Source of the DNA: a virus
Direction: 5' to 3' (one strand)
Virus record (IMG/VR): IMGVR_UViG_3300046170_000022
Span: 1 to 31,236 of that record
Length of the DNA stretch: 31,236 bases
Shown here: positions 1 through 28,133 of the stretch, one piece after another
Layout: the number at the start of each line of letters is the position of its first letter
How positions within the stretch are numbered: the first letter of the stretch is position 1
Position numbers and translations under genes: made by a program
Notes under the pieces: model-generated
Databases searched by the model: none
What the model was told of the DNA's origin: nothing
What the model saw: only the letters and a program-made list of their open reading frames with translations

Positions 1-188
1 CAATGCTTTTTGTTCTTCTTCATGTTTGAGATTGTAATAGGCTATCCACATAGAAAATTCTTCTACTGGCATTTGCATTATTTCGCTAATAGTTTTATGT
101 AGCTTTTCTGCTAAGAAAAAATGAAATCTGAAATTTGAATCAGAATTTAGTTTTTTTTTAAGTCTTTAGTATTCGTATCTGAGGAAAG
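1..188. repeat. Terminal direct repeat, left copy (circular-assembly overlap)
   Basis: These 188 bases are identical to 31049-31236. A reading frame (the T part of the tail chaperone) runs straight through the repeat and across the join, so the repeat looks like the overlap of a circular or circularly permuted assembly rather than a virion terminus. The unique genome is then about 31,048 bp. A true terminal repeat inside a tail gene would be unusual, but read-end mapping would be needed to exclude it. Confidence 0.9.
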
Positions 189-491
189 GATTTGACTAGC
201 AACTCTGCTAATAACATCTGGGTCAACAAACTTCTTCATTCTAATCTTACTTTCTAAATCAAACATTAACTCACCATCTTTTGTTTGTGCCTTTTTTACA
301 ATGACATCAATTAAGACAGTTAAGTCGTTATCACTAGAGCCTTTAAAGATTTCTGATTTTTCTAAAAGTGTAAATGGTTTAACATAAATGGCATCTTCGC
401 CTGTTAATCCCCATTCTTCTACTTCAATAATTTTAATCTCTTGGTGCTTAAAATGATTGATAGCACCTTCAAGATAATCTTTCTTGGGCAT
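147..491 (-). CDS. Tail assembly chaperone, gpG-like (frame 0 product)
   Basis: This 114-residue protein lies between the major tail protein gene and, across the circular join, the tape measure gene. That is the position of the lambda G gene, whose product coats the tape measure protein before tail tube assembly. The ORF ends immediately after an A-AAA-AAC heptamer (Leu-Lys-Lys-Asn-stop). The -1 frame stays open from this point for 60 more residues, with no start codon of its own near the shift site. I infer that the short protein is the main product and that a minority of ribosomes shift to make a longer G-T fusion. The call rests on position and the frameshift, because gpG-like sequences are poorly conserved. 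Confidence 0.8.
   Translation of the reverse strand: MPKKDYLEGAINHFKHQEIKIIEVEEWGLTGEDAIYVKPFTLLEKSEIFKGSSDNDLTVLIDVIVKKAQTKDGELMFDLESKIRMKKFVDPDVISRVASQILSSDTNTKDLKKN
150..156 (-). promoter_or_regulatory. Candidate -1 programmed frameshift site (A AAA AAC)
   Basis: Read on the minus strand, nine A residues followed by C contain the canonical slippery heptamer A AAA AAC in the correct phase, directly before the frame-0 stop TAA. Slipping back one base joins the frame to the T-like ORF. The same heptamer is present in the right-end copy at 31198-31204. Programmed -1 frameshifting in tail chaperone genes is well established in lambda-like phages. A homopolymer miscall could imitate the arrangement, but the canonical phase and location favour real recoding. 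Confidence 0.8.
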
Positions 492-496
492 ATAGA

Positions 497-886
497 TTAG
501 ACTGTTGTATGTGTGACGCCACCAGTAAATTGAACATTAAATGTTCTACTGATTACACCATCCATTGTCACTGCTACTGATGCACCTGTCACTAAAGCAG
601 TGCCAGTATAATAAGCATCACCGCTATCTGCACCTTCAGGATAAAGATTTAATGTGACAGAAGCACCGACATCAAGGCTTTCTTGACCTGATGAATCTGT
701 TTCATCCCAATGGCATTCAATAGTACCAGTGGCATCTTTTCTTAGTGCAATATAGGTTTTTGCAGTATCAGTTAATGATGTATCTTCAACAGTATCGTTA
801 GTTTCGTCAATGTTAAAACCTATTACTTCAGCTACAGTTGCTGATGCAATTTTGACTACTCCTGCGGTTCCGACGTGTGTTGCCAT
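497..886 (-). CDS. Major tail protein (tail tube)
   Basis: This 129-residue protein is Thr, Val, Ala and Gly rich with alternating beta-strand patterns and no membrane segment. It lies between the tail-terminator gene and the tail chaperones, which is the standard siphovirus position of the tube subunit. No sheath gene accompanies it, which argues against a contractile tail. The size is typical of compact tube proteins of small phages. The ATG at 886 has a GGAG ribosome binding site just upstream. The assignment rests on position and composition; I do not recognise a specific sequence family. Confidence 0.75.
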   Translation of the reverse strand: MATHVGTAGVVKIASATVAEVIGFNIDETNDTVEDTSLTDTAKTYIALRKDATGTIECHWDETDSSGQESLDVGASVTLNLYPEGADSGDAYYTGTALVTGASVAVTMDGVISRTFNVQFTGGVTHTTV

Positions 887-6927: not shown

Positions 6928-8328
6928 CCTCAATAGTTGGAGTTGAGAATTGACCAATAGTGATTGCCTTAGCATCTATTTCACTATCTATTGTATTAAT
7001 CTTTTCATCATCATCTACAACCTGCTCTTGCAATCTGTTTGTCTACTTCTTTTAAGAAGCTATCTGATTGAACACCACTAGCTTTTGCTTGTTGTAGGAA
7101 TTGTAAGTCACTAGCATAATCTCTAAGGTTGAAACTATCAGGATAAATAATTTCACCATCAAATGTTTGGTTCTGCCATTCAGCAAATAGTTTCCAGATT
7201 TGTTCTTCAGCATTTTGTAAGTAATCAGCTTTCTCAGATAATCTAGCGTTTAATAATTGAAACTCTGTTTGTAAAGCGATACCAGATTGTATTCTATCTT
7301 GGGTTGCTCTGACTGCACCCATATGTGTAATTCTATTAATAGCTTCTACCTTCATGTTAATATTATTCATGATGCCATCTAATGACTGTGATGATGGTTG
7401 GATAAGATAAGGTTTTAAATTAGGCTCTAAATCTTCTGGCATTTCAATAATAGAACCTGCACCTGCACTAGCCTCTACATTAGGTGTCTTAACTAAACTT
7501 GGGTGGTTAGATAATCTTACTAATTGTTCAATCTCGGAGTAATCATTATAGATAGCTTTTTGTAATTCAGCTACGTCATTAAGGTCAGACATACCAATGC
7601 CTCGTCTTTGTGATTTTTGATTGTAAAGAATAACCGCAGGAACTTTTCCTAATTGGTTTGGCATCTCATCAACAAGCATAGGTTTAGCAGTTGAATACCC
7701 TTTGTTAAAATCTTTTACTCTGTATGTAGAAATATCTTCCATTGTCCAAACTCTAATAGTTGCTACATCTTCAAATAAATCTTCTAGTAGTGTTAATGAT
7801 GTTAAAACATATCTACCATTGATTGAACGTTCAAAATTCCAATTTAAGACATTCTCAGGTGTGTAAAGGCTCATGTAGGGTCTGATGTCTAACTGTATTT
7901 CTTCTGCTCTAGTTTGAGTTTGTACCGCAGGTTTATCTAGTATTGCCCAACAAGTACCATAGATAGATGCATTGACCTTGCATTTCTCTAATGACGTTAT
8001 TGAAAGACCTTCCGTCTAAATCAGCATCATCAATAAAGCTTTGTAATTGTGCATCACCAGTTAATGAACCATAATCTCTTGTTGGTGGTACTCGGAATAA
8101 GAAAGACGAATAGATTTGCACCACATTTTTACAATGATTATCAATAGGGGTATTTTCTGCTCTTTTAAGATACTCCTCATCAGTTTCTAGGATGTATCTA
8201 TTTAGCTGATAGCCATCTTGATAGTCCTGTCCACCGAGATATGACATTAAATGAAAATGCCAATCCTTAAACTTTTCTTCGTAGTGTTTATGTCTTTCTG
8301 TTAAAAATTCTCTACTGTATAATGCCAT
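6905..8328 (-). CDS. Portal protein (reading frame broken at two sites)
   Basis: Three frames join into one plausible portal of about 473 residues. The first part (from ATG 8328, sharing TAATG with the terminase stop) runs to GRSFNNVIREMQG. The sequence then moves +1 at the CC of 7976-7977 and continues NASIYGTCWAILDKPAVQTQ into the long central part ending near KEVDKQIARA. A second +1 move at 7021-7022 leads to VVDDDEKINTIDSEIDAK and a stop at 6905. Removing one G (coding strand) at each site gives an open gene. The order terminase-portal-MuF and the length fit a siphovirus portal, the dodecameric DNA channel of the head. Sequencing indels are more likely than a true pseudogene, since a phage needs this gene. 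Confidence 0.85.
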
Positions 8329-9548
8329 TAACTCCACCTCTTGGGTTTGCTTGGTGTAAACTGTCTTTTGACTGGGTATAAATATTCCACTAAATATCCT
8401 AATGCATCATTCATATGGTCATAATTGTTGTCCTTGTCAGGCACAGTTGTTCCTTCTTTATAAATTTGTCTTTCAATGCTTTTTAACATAGTTTTACAAT
8501 TTTTGGCAACAAATAATGTTCGTTCACCTATTCCGTTCTTCAATTTAGTATTCACTGCATTTATTCTATCTCTAATCAGTGGATGATTGTTTCTTACTCG
8601 TAAATGAAATCCTGCATTTTTTAAGATAGCCAAATCAGTGACACCACCTGCTGATGTTTTTCTTTGCTTTGACGCAGGGTCAGGATAAATAAATATATGC
8701 TTATCCTTAAATCTATTTTTGATTTCTTGTACCATTTCGTCAGTATTAGAACTATAGATAACAATTTCTTCATAGAGATAAATATTATTACCTTTTAACT
8801 CACATATAACTGCGGACATTGGGTCTATATTGAAGTCCATGCCAATATGTATTTCATTAGTGTCAGGTACATAATTATCCATGACATTCTCTTTTCTATC
8901 AAAGTTGTAATAAATCTGTCCTGCATAATTAACAAATGAACCCATGTATTCTTGTTGGAATGTTCGTTCATCTAGGTCTGCTTTAGCTTGTTCTATTTCT
9001 TGTGGTGATACTCTGCCACCATCTAAGGTAGTAAATTGAAATGATGCCCAATTATCTGGGTCTTCATCAGCTTTGGTAAATAAGTTATAACTCCAGTTTC
9101 CATATCCTCTAGGTGTACCACAGAATAAAGCACTACCATTTCTATCACTTAAGGTGGGGCGGAGTATTTCGTACCAAGTATTTTCTCTAATATCTGCGAA
9201 CTCATCCATAATTAAAAAATCTAATCCTACACCTCTAAGGCTGTTCTCATTATCAGCACCCCTTAATGATATAGTTGAGCCATTTCTTAATGTGATAGTC
9301 AAGTCAGAGTTATTGACGGATTTTACCCATTTATGTGCAGTTAGTTTTTCTATTAAGTCAGTCCAAACAATCGTCTTAGCCATTCTATAAGTGGGTGCTA
9401 CATACCAGACTTTACGTTTTGGATATCTGCTAAACTTAGCTATCTCTGTGACGGATAAAAAAGTCTTACCCCATCTTCTTCCTGCTATGATTGTTCTAAA
9501 TCTTTTATCACATTCAAGAACTTGTTTTTGAGGTCTACTTAGTGGCAC
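8328..9548 (-). CDS. terL: Terminase large subunit (packaging ATPase/nuclease)
   Basis: This is the DNA-packaging motor. It shows an adenine-recognition motif (SRPQKQVL), a terminase-type Walker A (TIIAGRRWGKT), a Walker B (FLIMDEFAD) and coupling-motif region (FCGTPRGYGN). The RNase-H-like nuclease half has GMDFNIDPMSAVI, IYPDPASKQR and a late DHMNDALGY acidic/histidine motif. The start is uncertain. GTG at 9548 overlaps the GNAT gene by only 14 bases, while ATG at 9626 has an AGGA ribosome binding site but overlaps it by 92 bases. The adjacent small terminase and portal confirm the assignment. The protein is full length (about 406 residues) and looks intact. Confidence 0.95.
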   Translation of the reverse strand: MPLSRPQKQVLECDKRFRTIIAGRRWGKTFLSVTEIAKFSRYPKRKVWYVAPTYRMAKTIVWTDLIEKLTAHKWVKSVNNSDLTITLRNGSTISLRGADNENSLRGVGLDFLIMDEFADIRENTWYEILRPTLSDRNGSALFCGTPRGYGNWSYNLFTKADEDPDNWASFQFTTLDGGRVSPQEIEQAKADLDERTFQQEYMGSFVNYAGQIYYNFDRKENVMDNYVPDTNEIHIGMDFNIDPMSAVICELKGNNIYLYEEIVIYSSNTDEMVQEIKNRFKDKHIFIYPDPASKQRKTSAGGVTDLAILKNAGFHLRVRNNHPLIRDRINAVNTKLKNGIGERTLFVAKNCKTMLKSIERQIYKEGTTVPDKDNNYDHMNDALGYLVEYLYPVKRQFTPSKPKRWS

Positions 9549-10011
9549 TTTTTTCCCATCTAAACTTTTCTTGATAATAAACAGCTTGAGTATTTCTATT
9601 ATTTCTAGTTTCCCAACCTTTGGCATTTTTTCCTAATGGTTTTGTTGTATTGACATTATCCCAACCTGCACCCCTTAAACTAGCACCACCTTCAGATGTG
9701 AGAGTATAAGTTAATATTTTTTTACCACCCATTTGTAGCCATATATTCCAACATTTATTGTATAAAAAACTACAAGCATTTTTAGGTGAGGGTTCTTTAA
9801 TACACAATCTAGTTATTTCAGCAACTAAGGGTTTGTCTAATTTTCTAGCTATTGGTTTGCCTACAACAGCAATACCAACTAATTTATTATCCTTAATACA
9901 ACCTAAAGAAAACTTATGGGCAATAACCTTTTTATTATGCCTGTGATGTTCTGTGATAAATTTATTAGCTTCTTTAAGAGTAAGTGGAATTACTGAAAAT
10001 TCTTTAGCCAC
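9535..10011 (-). CDS. XF1762/Mom-like GNAT-fold protein between the terminase genes
   Basis: This 158-residue protein has the hallmarks of a GNAT-related phage family I know as XF1762-like and related to Mu Mom: TEHHRHNKKVIAHKFSLGC, VGKPIARKLDKP, EITRLCIKEPSPKNACSFLY and LTSEGGASLRGAGW. Mom modifies adenine in phage DNA and shields it from host restriction. A DNA-modification role here is inference from family. It starts with GTG at 10011, sharing TAGTG with the terminase small subunit stop, so it is translated with the packaging genes. A DNA methyltransferase gene lies just upstream (10378-11574), consistent with a modification theme. Confidence 0.75.
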   Translation of the reverse strand: MAKEFSVIPLTLKEANKFITEHHRHNKKVIAHKFSLGCIKDNKLVGIAVVGKPIARKLDKPLVAEITRLCIKEPSPKNACSFLYNKCWNIWLQMGGKKILTYTLTSEGGASLRGAGWDNVNTTKPLGKNAKGWETRNNRNTQAVYYQEKFRWEKSATK

Positions 10012-10351: not shown

Positions 10352-10381
10352 TTTATATCAATAATAGACACTATTAATCAA
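10352..10381 (-). promoter_or_regulatory. Candidate sigma70-type promoter for packaging and structural genes
   Basis: On the minus strand the sequence reads TTGATT, an 18-base spacer, then TATAAA. The -10 matches 5 of 6 and the -35 4 of 6 consensus bases, in one of the few intergenic gaps in the genome, just upstream of terS. The -35 overlaps the methyltransferase stop codon. AT-rich genomes produce such matches by chance, so confidence is moderate. Confidence 0.45.
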
Positions 10382-11574
10382 TTTATTTTTTCTGCCTTTT
10401 GTCCTGTAAAATCTTCCCACCTTTTAATAATTACATCTACATAATGAGGGTCAAGTTCCATTCCATAACATATTCTATCTATTTTTTGACAAGCAATTAA
10501 TGTTGAACCAGAACCTAAGAAACCATCATAAATAATTTTAAAATCAGTAAACTTTTTGAATATGTCGGTAAATAAAGCAACAGGTTTTTGGGTTGGGTGT
10601 ACTCTTGATTTTAATTCATCTTTTCTATTACCTTTTCTTGATAAACCATTCCATAGATGTCTAAATACTTTAACACCGCCTTTAGAAAATGAAGTCCAAC
10701 CCATTTCTGCTTCTGAAAAATTACCTGTCATTTCTTTATCCCATATAATCCAACATCTACTAGGGTATAAAAAATCTGTAAAATAATTACCACCCCATAA
10801 GATAATATTTTTTAATTCTAAACTATTACATATTTCATAAAACTTTTTTGCAGTTTCTGTTGTATTGTCACCTATTATTTTTGAATATGTTTTAGATGCT
10901 ATTATTTTTTGATTTCTATCTACAGCTTCTTGACCACCGCCTATTTTTCCAAATGTAGCAGGTTTATCACCAACTACTTTATTAGACCTAACTACATCAA
11001 TTCCGTAAGGTGGGTCTGTAAATACCAAATCTATTTTTTTATCTAATAATCTTTTTGTTTGTTCTAAATCTGTACTATCCCCACACATCAATCTATGTTC
11101 ACCAAGTTTATAAATATCGCCTAGTTGTGCTTGGGGTTCTTCTGGTGTTTCTGGAACTGCATCTTCATCTGTTAGTCCTTCTTTCTCACCTACAATTATT
11201 TTTTCTAATTCATCAGGGTCAAATCCTGTTAGTTCTAAATCATAATTATTATCTAGTAGGTCAGTAAACTCTTGAATTAATAATCCCATATCCCAATCAG
11301 AATATTCATTAGTTTTATTATCAGCTATTCTATATGCCTTAGCTTTTTCTGGTGGTAAGTCAGCAATAGTGACAGGAATAGTTTTTAGGTTTAAAGACTT
11401 AGCGGCTTCATACCTACCATGTCCGACTATAATCACTCCTGCTCTATCTACGACTATGGGTTGTTGAAATCCAAATTCTTTAATTGATTGTGCAACTTTG
11501 TTTATATCATATTTGTGTCTAGGGTTTTTCTGATAAGGCTTAATATCGCTTATCGCTTTATCTTGAACTATCAT
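10378..11574 (-). CDS. ParB-like domain fused to a beta-class DNA methyltransferase
   Basis: This 398-residue protein has an N-terminal ParB/Srx-like domain (about residues 1-125, with GHGRYEAAK at 51-59). A methyltransferase domain follows, whose catalytic motif IV, DPPY, is at 187-190 and whose SAM-binding motif I, FLGSGST, is at 352-358. Motif IV before motif I marks a beta-class (CcrM/DpnA-like) enzyme methylating adenine N6 or cytosine N4. The target site cannot be read from the sequence. ParB-methyltransferase fusions are common in phages and are thought to protect phage DNA or alter host recognition. No restriction enzyme partner is visible. The start overlaps the small gene upstream as TAATG. 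Confidence 0.9.
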   Translation of the reverse strand: MIVQDKAISDIKPYQKNPRHKYDINKVAQSIKEFGFQQPIVVDRAGVIIVGHGRYEAAKSLNLKTIPVTIADLPPEKAKAYRIADNKTNEYSDWDMGLLIQEFTDLLDNNYDLELTGFDPDELEKIIVGEKEGLTDEDAVPETPEEPQAQLGDIYKLGEHRLMCGDSTDLEQTKRLLDKKIDLVFTDPPYGIDVVRSNKVVGDKPATFGKIGGGQEAVDRNQKIIASKTYSKIIGDNTTETAKKFYEICNSLELKNIILWGGNYFTDFLYPSRCWIIWDKEMTGNFSEAEMGWTSFSKGGVKVFRHLWNGLSRKGNRKDELKSRVHPTQKPVALFTDIFKKFTDFKIIYDGFLGSGSTLIACQKIDRICYGMELDPHYVDVIIKRWEDFTGQKAEKIN

Positions 11575-24930: not shown

Positions 24931-27759
24931 TTATGATTTCAACCCATAACCATTAGCTTGATAGTCAAAAGTTCTTGAGATAGCAGAATTACTAGAATTA
25001 TAGAAAGTCACATCAAAGCCAGATGTAGATTTATTAGCTACTACAAAGTAATCTCCACTAGCCATATCTTGACCTGTAATATTGACATTAGGGTTAGCAT
25101 AGAATGGATTTGTGAAGGTGACATTATATGTTCCTGTTCCACTAGCTATATCATCACCTGTTTCTTGTCTATTCTGTAAGTTTAAAGATACAGTTAATCC
25201 TTTCACCAAGGCTCTTGATTGATTATTTAAGCTGATTAGTCTGGCTCTAAATTTAAAATATTTACCTTTAAATGTTCCCTGTTGGGCAACACTTGTAAAT
25301 GTAGAGATGTCATCAAGGCTAGTTTCACTTGCTCCTATCTGAATATTAGTTCCTGCATTTGTAGGTAGATTTCCGTCAAATGGTGCTTTGGCATTTTCAA
25401 ATAAATCCTCATTACGACCAAAATCAAATAAATCGTATGGGTCATCAGAAATCATATCTAATTGAATTTTAAATGTAGCATCATAAATAAATGGCAAAGT
25501 AAAAGTTGAACTAAAATCATAAAAACCACTTCCTATAATATTCTTATTAATGCCACCTGTTTCAAATACATAATTAGCGTCTACATCACCAAAATTACCC
25601 ACACCTTCATCAAACTTACTAATTGTGTCTAGGGTTATCACATTATCACCTGTAATAGTTCCTGTGTCTGTTCTTTTAAATGTGTTGGTAAAACTACCTG
25701 CAAAATTAGGGTGTTCTGATATAGAGTTAATTAACTTATATCCTTGAGTGGTGACATTTGAAGATACTATTAATGAAGGCTCTAAACTTTCATTACCTAG
25801 TTTATCAATAGCTTTAATACCTAATGTAAAAGGTGCATCAATTTTATTTAAGATAATACTGTTCGCACTTCTTCTAGGCACACGAACTAAATCAGTAGAA
25901 TTAAACCATTGATAACCACTAGATACTTTTTGATAGCGTATTTCATAGGATTCAACATCAAGGTCGGCAACAGGCAACCAAGATAACTGCATTTGGTCAC
26001 TACCTATTAATGATATTGAAAATTCTTCTACATTGGCAGGTGGCTCGGTAGCACCAATTACCTTCCTTGTACCTGTGATATAAGCTGATTTAACACCTAA
26101 ACTATTAATACCTCTTGCTCTTACTTCATAAGTTCCACCATCTACTGCATTTAATAATTGATACTCTAAAGACTTACCTTGAGATACTATTCTAAAATCA
26201 TCAACTACCGCATCACCATTCCTATTTAAAGTTTGTTTTACTTCAATTTCATAATCATCAACAAATCTGTCAGTAGAAGCACCCACAGTTATTAATAATC
26301 TAGTGATGACTGTTCCATCATTCAATTCTTGTAAATCATCAGATAAGGTTAATGACGAAGGTGGTTGTACTGTAAAGGGGTCTGGTAGGTTTGTATCACC
26401 AATAGTCACTACTTCGTTAATGGTGCTAAATGTGTACCAACTGTCTTGGTGTTCTTGCAAAGATAGACTAGCAGTAAAATTTGCATTTAGCGTCATACCA
26501 CTTACTCTAAATGGTTTATTTGTCATTCCTAATATTGTTGAACTAACATTAACGATATCACCAATAGCTAAATCTAATCCTTCATAATTAACAGTAAGTC
26601 CTAATTTTAAATTGTTTCTACTTCTTTGAAGCACAATTTTTCCAAATTCATGAGCCTGATAAGGTGAGTTAATTGTATCTAGTGTAATATTTCCTTCTTG
26701 TAAGAAACCACCATCAGCAGTTTTTAGTGTGTCATGGTCTGTATCATAAACAATGGTATCTGGTTGATAGTTCTTTTCAGGATTAACAAAGTTTACTAAA
26801 ACACGATTGTATTTTTGGTCTTTTCTTTCACTTTCTAATTTTACACCGCCTATAATATTATCTTCATTTAAAGTAAAGTTTGCAGTGCCTGTGCTTTCTA
26901 TTAAAAGTTTATATTGACCTTGAGCATAAGGCAATAAACCTCTCATACCTCTTAAAAGAGTTTTAACGTTATCTAATATTTTTTTATTAGTATTTAAGAC
27001 TGCATTACATTCAAATAATTTTCCTGTTGTTCCTGTGTAATAATTGACTGTTGTATCTGCTATTTGTGAAGCTGAATAAAAGCTAGGTATATCTAATTCA
27101 GTTAATGGAATACCTTTTCCATATCTTTCATTTCTCATAAAATCTAAAAGAACAAATGCAGGATTAGTAGAGTATTGTCCTGTGGTTTCATTACTACTAC
27201 CATCAAAAGTAGAAATCTTTTTACCTTGAACTTTTACTTTGATATTGGGAATACCTGAATATTTATCTGCATCCCATTCAAATCTGAAGGCTACATAACA
27301 AACTCCAGATAATTTATGATTACTACCCCAATTCGTAAGTGTTGATAATAAACTAGATGCTGATTGTCCATCTGTACCATAAAAAGGTTGCACCTTAATA
27401 GTTGTTCCATATTGACTATCGTTAGAAGTTATTTCTGTACCATTAGCAAAAACACCACTAAAAGTCACTGTATCATCATTAACTTGGATTTCTGTGACTG
27501 CATTAATCTCACCCTCACATAAAACTAATGCTATATAAAGGTAGGTATTATCATTTCCACTCGTCTCAATAAAACAGCGAGTACCTCCAAGTAATCTTTC
27601 ACCATAAACTACAGGGATTTGTGCATTATTAGACTGTTTATTAAGTAGAGTACCTCTAATTTCCTCTACTTCTGGTGTGTCTGGTATTTCAGGTATATCT
27701 ATAAACCAAGATACAACTTTCTGTGCGATTTGTTGAATACCTTTGACTATTTGTGCCAT
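24931..27759 (-). CDS. Large tail tip protein, gpJ-like (host specificity), with FN3 domain
   Basis: This 942-residue protein is the largest in the genome. The N-terminal part (IPVVYGERLLGGTRCFIETS, then LYIALVLCEGEINAVTEIQV) matches the start of J-type central tail-tip proteins. A middle region with GLDLAIGDIVNVSS is typical of the hub domains, an FN3 domain is visible near residues 575-670 (QLSWLPVADLDVESYEIRY), and the C-terminus has a receptor-tip-like beta domain ending FDYQANGYGLKS. It would close the tail end, contact the host and trigger DNA release. It follows the HlyC-like gene with a 13-base overlap. Confidence 0.88.
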   Translation of the reverse strand: MAQIVKGIQQIAQKVVSWFIDIPEIPDTPEVEEIRGTLLNKQSNNAQIPVVYGERLLGGTRCFIETSGNDNTYLYIALVLCEGEINAVTEIQVNDDTVTFSGVFANGTEITSNDSQYGTTIKVQPFYGTDGQSASSLLSTLTNWGSNHKLSGVCYVAFRFEWDADKYSGIPNIKVKVQGKKISTFDGSSNETTGQYSTNPAFVLLDFMRNERYGKGIPLTELDIPSFYSASQIADTTVNYYTGTTGKLFECNAVLNTNKKILDNVKTLLRGMRGLLPYAQGQYKLLIESTGTANFTLNEDNIIGGVKLESERKDQKYNRVLVNFVNPEKNYQPDTIVYDTDHDTLKTADGGFLQEGNITLDTINSPYQAHEFGKIVLQRSRNNLKLGLTVNYEGLDLAIGDIVNVSSTILGMTNKPFRVSGMTLNANFTASLSLQEHQDSWYTFSTINEVVTIGDTNLPDPFTVQPPSSLTLSDDLQELNDGTVITRLLITVGASTDRFVDDYEIEVKQTLNRNGDAVVDDFRIVSQGKSLEYQLLNAVDGGTYEVRARGINSLGVKSAYITGTRKVIGATEPPANVEEFSISLIGSDQMQLSWLPVADLDVESYEIRYQKVSSGYQWFNSTDLVRVPRRSANSIILNKIDAPFTLGIKAIDKLGNESLEPSLIVSSNVTTQGYKLINSISEHPNFAGSFTNTFKRTDTGTITGDNVITLDTISKFDEGVGNFGDVDANYVFETGGINKNIIGSGFYDFSSTFTLPFIYDATFKIQLDMISDDPYDLFDFGRNEDLFENAKAPFDGNLPTNAGTNIQIGASETSLDDISTFTSVAQQGTFKGKYFKFRARLISLNNQSRALVKGLTVSLNLQNRQETGDDIASGTGTYNVTFTNPFYANPNVNITGQDMASGDYFVVANKSTSGFDVTFYNSSNSAISRTFDYQANGYGLKS

Positions 27760-28133
27760 TTATTACTTACCTTCATAATTCTATTATTTCTAAATGCTTT
27801 TACCCAAATAGCATTATCATATTTTAATTGTTTAAAGAAATATCGTTTGCACCAATTAACCATATCTAAAATATTTTTACTACTAACAAAATTGGCTAAA
27901 CATAAATTGTCACCACAGTTCCAATTAGTTTGGTCTATAATTGCATGATTTATAAATTTTGTTTTTTGTATTTCATTTAAAAATGCCCAATTTACAAATC
28001 CTGTAATTTCATCATCTTTGAATATCTTATATTGATTGAGTTCATAACTAGGTTGTATGTGTGCTTTTAAATTTTCTTCAGAGTATTCTTGATATTCTTT
28101 AAATTTTTTTAAAAAATTAATAATTTCAATCAA
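27747..28133 (-). CDS. HlyC/RtxC-like acyltransferase homologue in the tail-tip operon (catalytic residues replaced)
   Basis: This 128-residue protein aligns with the toxin-activating lysine acyltransferase family. Matching elements are PSYELNQYKIFKDD (HlyC PAIQANQY), ITGFVNWAFLNE (pvayCSWAnL), TNWNCGDNLCLANF (dWtSGDrkWfIDw) and a final KAFRNNRIMKVS. By this alignment the catalytic His23 of HlyC corresponds to Tyr14 here and Asp92 to Asn81, so classical acyl transfer is doubtful. It occupies the position of the NlpC/P60-type K protein in lambda-like tips, overlaps both neighbours, and so is probably a structural or assembly protein. No RTX toxin substrate is encoded nearby. Family assignment is from motif order and is moderately sure. 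Confidence 0.6.
   Translation of the reverse strand: MIEIINFLKKFKEYQEYSEENLKAHIQPSYELNQYKIFKDDEITGFVNWAFLNEIQKTKFINHAIIDQTNWNCGDNLCLANFVSSKNILDMVNWCKRYFFKQLKYDNAIWVKAFRNNRIMKVSNKWHK

Follow-up and report, generated by a model that had tools for sequence, protein, structure and literature searches.

The window analysed here, the whole of a 31,236-base phage contig with a GC content of 33%, carries the G/GT tail assembly chaperone module of a long-tailed marine phage, in which the longer product GT would be made by a ribosomal -1 slip at TTA AAA AAA AAC; from the sequence comparisons described below, we put the probability of this reading at about 0.8. The gene for G (147..491, minus strand) encodes the zero-frame product of 114 aa, which ends in LKKN, and its 3' end reads GAC TTA AAA AAA AAC TAA. 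The slippery heptamer A AAA AAC (150..156, minus strand), which lies in the X_XXY_YYZ phase, adjoins the G stop codon TAA (149..147), in agreement with the initial annotation, which had a gpG-like ORF stopping right after this heptamer (the 114-aa ORF 491..147, ending in AAA AAC TAA). A second in-phase heptamer, A AAA AAA (153..159, minus strand), is located immediately upstream and overlaps the first, the two together making a run of nine A residues (A9; 151..159, minus strand) that is kept at this length or longer in all relatives of the window and HTVC026P groups. The -1 frame contains stops upstream and becomes open just 5 codons ahead of the C of AAC, the base at which T begins. The complete T extension (31019..31198, minus strand) has the 60 codons predicted earlier and the deduced sequence LNSDSNFRFHFFLAEKLHKTISEIMQMPVEEFSMWIAYYNLKHEEEQKALNKAKMQGKRR, and its stop codon TAA (31018..31016) shares its last base with the tape measure ATG at 31016.

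T appears twice in the window, at the two ends of the contig. Positions 1..188 are exactly identical to 31049..31236, and this terminal repeat is the contig overlap of a circle, with a unit of 31,048 bp after removal of the 188-bp overlap. At the left end lie G, the heptamer and the first 50 codons of T, which run off the window start (1..150, minus strand). Because the repeat is exact, the right end alone shows the entire T, with a second copy of A AAA AAC (31204..31198, minus strand) and all 60 codons, so that the initial annotation was wrong in stating that neither end by itself reveals the G/T frameshift. Its proposal that the circle was cut inside T was borne out: since the junction is spanned by contigs L003 and L004 (96–97% identity to the window) and the near-complete contigs of relatives have breakpoints elsewhere on the common map, the join appears reliable and the position of the cut arbitrary. 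The 188-bp repeat was also considered as a physical virion terminus, which is unsupported, as most contigs of relatives have no end repeats and their breakpoints lie at other places.

The neighbouring genes are those of a tail module. A major tail (tube) protein (497..886, minus strand; PHROG 10528, E=2e-10) is encoded directly upstream of G, and a tape measure protein of 580 aa (29274..31016, minus strand; PHROG 3336, E=1e-17), the ATG of which overlaps the T stop, follows, giving the order tail tube, G, T and tape measure, with two ORFs between the tail protein and the tape measure. G alone matched PHROG 16513, annotated as tail assembly chaperone, with E=4e-9, and G joined to T matched the same family end to end (residues 4–153, E=5e-17). 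T alone matched PHROG 337, annotated as tail protein (1.4e-5), and gave a weak hit at the far end of PHROG 16513; its match to the Pfam family Phage_tail_T (PF06223) was weak (E=0.19) and covered 14 residues only. No useful match to G was found in Pfam or NCBIfam, and a search of PDB sequences with the G profile found nothing. AlphaFold models were built with input rows from related loci only. For the model of G (pLDDT 84), the best solved match was the HK97 tail assembly chaperone 2OB9 (Foldseek probability 1.00; Z 8.2 in VIA, with an rmsd of 4.4 over 102 residues and only 16% identity), followed by YqbN (3KLU, VIA Z 6.0), and in the viral library BFVD it matched the tail assembly chaperone of RcRhea (E=1.8e-6). 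T was modelled as a short helical domain (pLDDT 90), for which no significant fold match was found in PDB. G and T are thus related in sequence or fold to known tail chaperones (PHROG 16513 across G and T; 2OB9, 3KLU and RcRhea), and the earlier assignment of a gpG-like chaperone with a gpT-like extension is supported, the joined protein fitting one chaperone family.

Among the 78 ORFs of the window, 9 in-phase heptamer motifs were located near gene ends, and a -1 extension of at least 40 codons followed only two of these, the G/T site and a CCCAAAC. In such an AT-rich genome, in-phase heptamers before an open -1 frame arise by chance and their rarity proves little; the G/T site is regarded as real because it is conserved in relatives. 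We compared 225 distinct loci, consisting of a window group (94), groups related to the Pelagibacter phages HTVC026P (65) and HTVC112P (65), and the Rhodobacter phage RcCronus. In 225/225 of these loci, from four lineages, the G stop directly follows an in-phase X_XXY_YYZ heptamer; this was the conservation that the initial annotation had wished to see checked. After the heptamer, the -1 frame continues for 46–60 codons, one contig ending inside T. In seven bacterial contigs (Rickettsia endosymbiont assemblies, Pseudovibrio, Roseobacter and one more), the heptamer abuts the stop in 6 and lies one codon earlier in 1. Searching with the RcCronus protein as seed returned no record but its own. 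Since the Rickettsia endosymbiont assemblies (L345, L346 and L347) hold relatives of the tail chaperone with a frameshift site, these endosymbionts may carry long-tailed prophages.

Such conservation bears on the possibility that a single gene only seems split because the A run was misassembled or misread. Homopolymers are error-prone and the window contains a broken portal ORF elsewhere, but the same frame relation is found throughout 225 distinct sequences from several lineages, both contigs and isolate genomes, with a run length that does not vary from 9/10 or 7, and it holds even where the slip site is G GGA AAC; all relatives agree, and this explanation is refuted for practical purposes. 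Neither a G/T fused frame nor a separate start for T, the latter named beforehand as arguing against a frameshift, was found in the relatives.

T could instead be an independent small gene or a decayed relic that does not form part of a fusion, given its location in a frame of its own past the G stop. This is very improbable. In the window, no ATG, GTG or TTG occurs among the first 24 codons of T, so that a start would be available no earlier than codon 25, the open frame starts just 5 codons before the slip point, and PHROG 16513 spans G and T as one protein. Moreover, the pN/pS ratio of T in the window group was 0.277 in the -1 frame vs 0.96 and 1.57 in the other two frames, and in the three groups it was 0.28, 0.32 and 0.25 in the -1 frame and 0.85–3.0 in the others. 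By this measure, purifying selection acts on the T protein when the -1 frame is read and in neither other frame, a further point against this alternative.

The homologues use two different signal designs. In the window and HTVC026P groups, a run of A9 or longer (A9/A10) was found in 159/159 distinct loci, and the context NTA AAA AAA AAN in all but one of them. The third base of codon -4, at which a change is silent, was A in 51/51 loci of the window group after thinning and in 14/14 loci at >20% divergence, against a background of A at the third base in 31% of the L/V/I codons of the same genes. The last codon of G also showed a preference, AAC and AAT occurring at 52:3 in the window group and 65:0 in the HTVC026P group. 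An exchange between AAC and AAT is silent in both the G and the T frames, and elsewhere in the HTVC026P group AAT is the common codon (105:21 over AAC). No stimulator was detected with this A9/A10 design in either group; in the window group, neither a downstream stimulatory structure (mean fold z about -0.5; RNAalifold -1.4 kcal/mol) nor a Shine-Dalgarno (SD)-like stretch near the slip site was found.

In the HTVC112P group the slip site is a single A AAA AAG, the run is A7 and codon -4 is unconstrained. Most of its members contain an SD-like stretch just upstream of the heptamer, and a hairpin with a 7-bp stem (AGCGACC...GGTCGCT; e.g. in L083, L085 and L317) begins about 4 bases past A AAA AAG, just after the G stop, with a mean fold z of -2.4. 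The stem codons AGG and TCG are fixed in 21/21 members, TCG accounting for only 1 of 206 Ser codons elsewhere. Judged by its elements, this is the layout recognised for ribosomal frameshifting. In the window and HTVC026P groups, the A9 run, by offering two slip sites in tandem, probably does the work of the SD-like stretch and hairpin of the HTVC112P group; the constraint on the run is measured, albeit over related genomes that are not independent samples, and the tandem-heptamer function is our inference. The pair of signals, a long A run alone in some homologues and a heptamer with putative stimulators in others, is a side result worth keeping.

Since the A9 run consists of two overlapping in-phase heptamers, slippage by RNA polymerase is a live alternative, in which GT would come mainly from transcripts of the A9/A10 run with one extra A, which places T in the G frame. 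Many bacterial RNA polymerases slip on runs as long as A9, and in dnaX Thermus uses A9 and E. coli uses A AAA AAG with stimulators (PMC1088944); both designs of the T. thermophilus and E. coli dnaX genes recur here among homologues. The run never falls below 9 A in the 159 loci, codon -4 always ends in A, which is more than a single heptamer requires, and stimulators were not found in the window group. A conserved homopolymer of 8–9 or more bases, as used to recognise programmed transcriptional slippage, is therefore present in the window and HTVC026P groups, the HTVC112P group having A7 only. Long runs also look costly, as they are scarce in coding DNA. Outside the slip gene, 5 runs of A≥9 were seen vs 16 expected from synonymous shuffles in the window group, and 12 vs 27 in the other groups; for T≥9 in the window group, 0 were seen and 7 expected. 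A similar under-representation relative to synonymous shuffles was observed for A≥8 and T≥7 runs in the coding DNA of 15 related genomes (G002–G015 and the window).

Several observations do not fit the polymerase. The run always lies in the X_XXY_YYZ phase and adjoins the stop, every A9 site also holds two ribosomal heptamers, and homologues work with A7 or G GGA AAC and no long run; the preference for AAC over AAT is likewise not expected from transcriptional slippage. The depletion of A≥9 runs, moreover, is strongest in the two-heptamer phase (3 seen vs 17.1 expected, compared with 14 vs 25.9 in the other phases; P about 0.05), as translation predicts. Long A runs thus appear to be costly, and more so in the phase that is slippery for the ribosome. 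The literature searched contained no account of a phage tail chaperone made by transcriptional slippage. In view of the phase-biased depletion and of the homologues without a long run, ribosomal -1 frameshifting is most likely the source of GT; polymerase slippage may contribute, and as the main route it is an unlikely, though serious, competitor. It is equally doubtful, on the same evidence, that the locus is a tail-assembly counterpart of the Thermus/E. coli dnaX pair, with polymerase slippage in the window group and the ribosome with a hairpin in its relatives.

A -1 slip that gives short and long chaperone forms is used by most long-tailed phages, and Xu, Hendrix and Duda reportedly described the conserved G-T frameshift of these phages in 2004. 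In the window, most ribosomes would translate G and end at the TAA after AAC, while a minority would slip back one base on TTA AAA AAA AAC, the tRNAs on A_AAA_AAA or A_AAA_AAC shifting their pairing upstream by one base, and would read 60 more codons to give GT. We infer, beyond the arrangement of the sequence, that this shift occurs, that the ribosome is the agent that slips and that it does so with low efficiency. Lambda-like roles are predicted by analogy, with the functions of lambda G and GT as the model (PMC5009743): G, in excess, would coat the tape measure protein, and the rarer GT would also bind the tail-tube protein through T and start tube polymerisation, the slip setting the G:GT ratio.

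The window resembles lambda in the order of tail tube, G, T and tape measure, in the -1 shift near the end of G and in a T without its own start. The lambda slip site is G GGA AAG, whereas the window has A9 with two tandem heptamers, a stop directly after the heptamer and a T of 60 codons. Closest in design are the Pelagibacter phages HTVC026P and HTVC202P, in which the site reads GTA AAA AAA AAC TAA, a -1 frame of 56 codons then runs to the tape measure, and the G proteins are 37–38% identical to that of the window; in their records G is a "putative tail protein" or a hypothetical protein and T is unannotated. The Pelagibacter phages HTVC111P and HTVC112P share a homologous G, a heptamer abutting the stop and a T of 59–60 codons, but have the single A AAA AAG and the conserved hairpin, with an SD-like stretch in most of their group, in place of a long A run. 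The tail assembly chaperones of the Rhodobacter phages RcCronus, RcRhea and RcSaxon are homologous in G (29%) and T; in RcCronus the frameshift is already annotated as a joined CDS, and the slip site, unlike that of the window, is G GGA AAC TGA with no homopolymer. By these comparisons, the G/GT site itself appears to be an ordinary, strongly conserved member of its family, with a small novelty only in the unusually long slippery run, which seems to act without helpers.

These results correct the annotation of a widespread marine phage group, in which T has gone unannotated, Pelagibacter phage isolates included. They also offer a natural comparison, as homologous genes appear to keep one frame shift with two different signals, and make it testable how AT-rich phages set a low fixed ratio of two tail proteins and whether it is the ribosome or the polymerase that slips.

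Other features of the window are also worth noting. A small protein of the HlyC RTX-toxin acyltransferase family (27747..28133, minus strand; Pfam PF02794, 3e-10) is encoded between the tail-tip genes and a J-like fibre gene, and HTVC026P gp47 is an annotated counterpart at the equivalent position. A Mom-like DNA modification protein (9535..10011, minus strand; PHROG 1384, 1e-33; Pfam Mom, 1.6e-7) is encoded by a gene that overlaps the terminase gene, and a fusion of ParB-N with an N6/N4 DNA methylase is located nearby at 10378..11574. The portal gene (7011..8337, minus strand) reads as two ORFs in different frames, through either a sequence error or a real break; near 7976, one extra base is present in the window and in the related genome G003 and absent from G002, and near 7022 the window has another extra base relative to G003.
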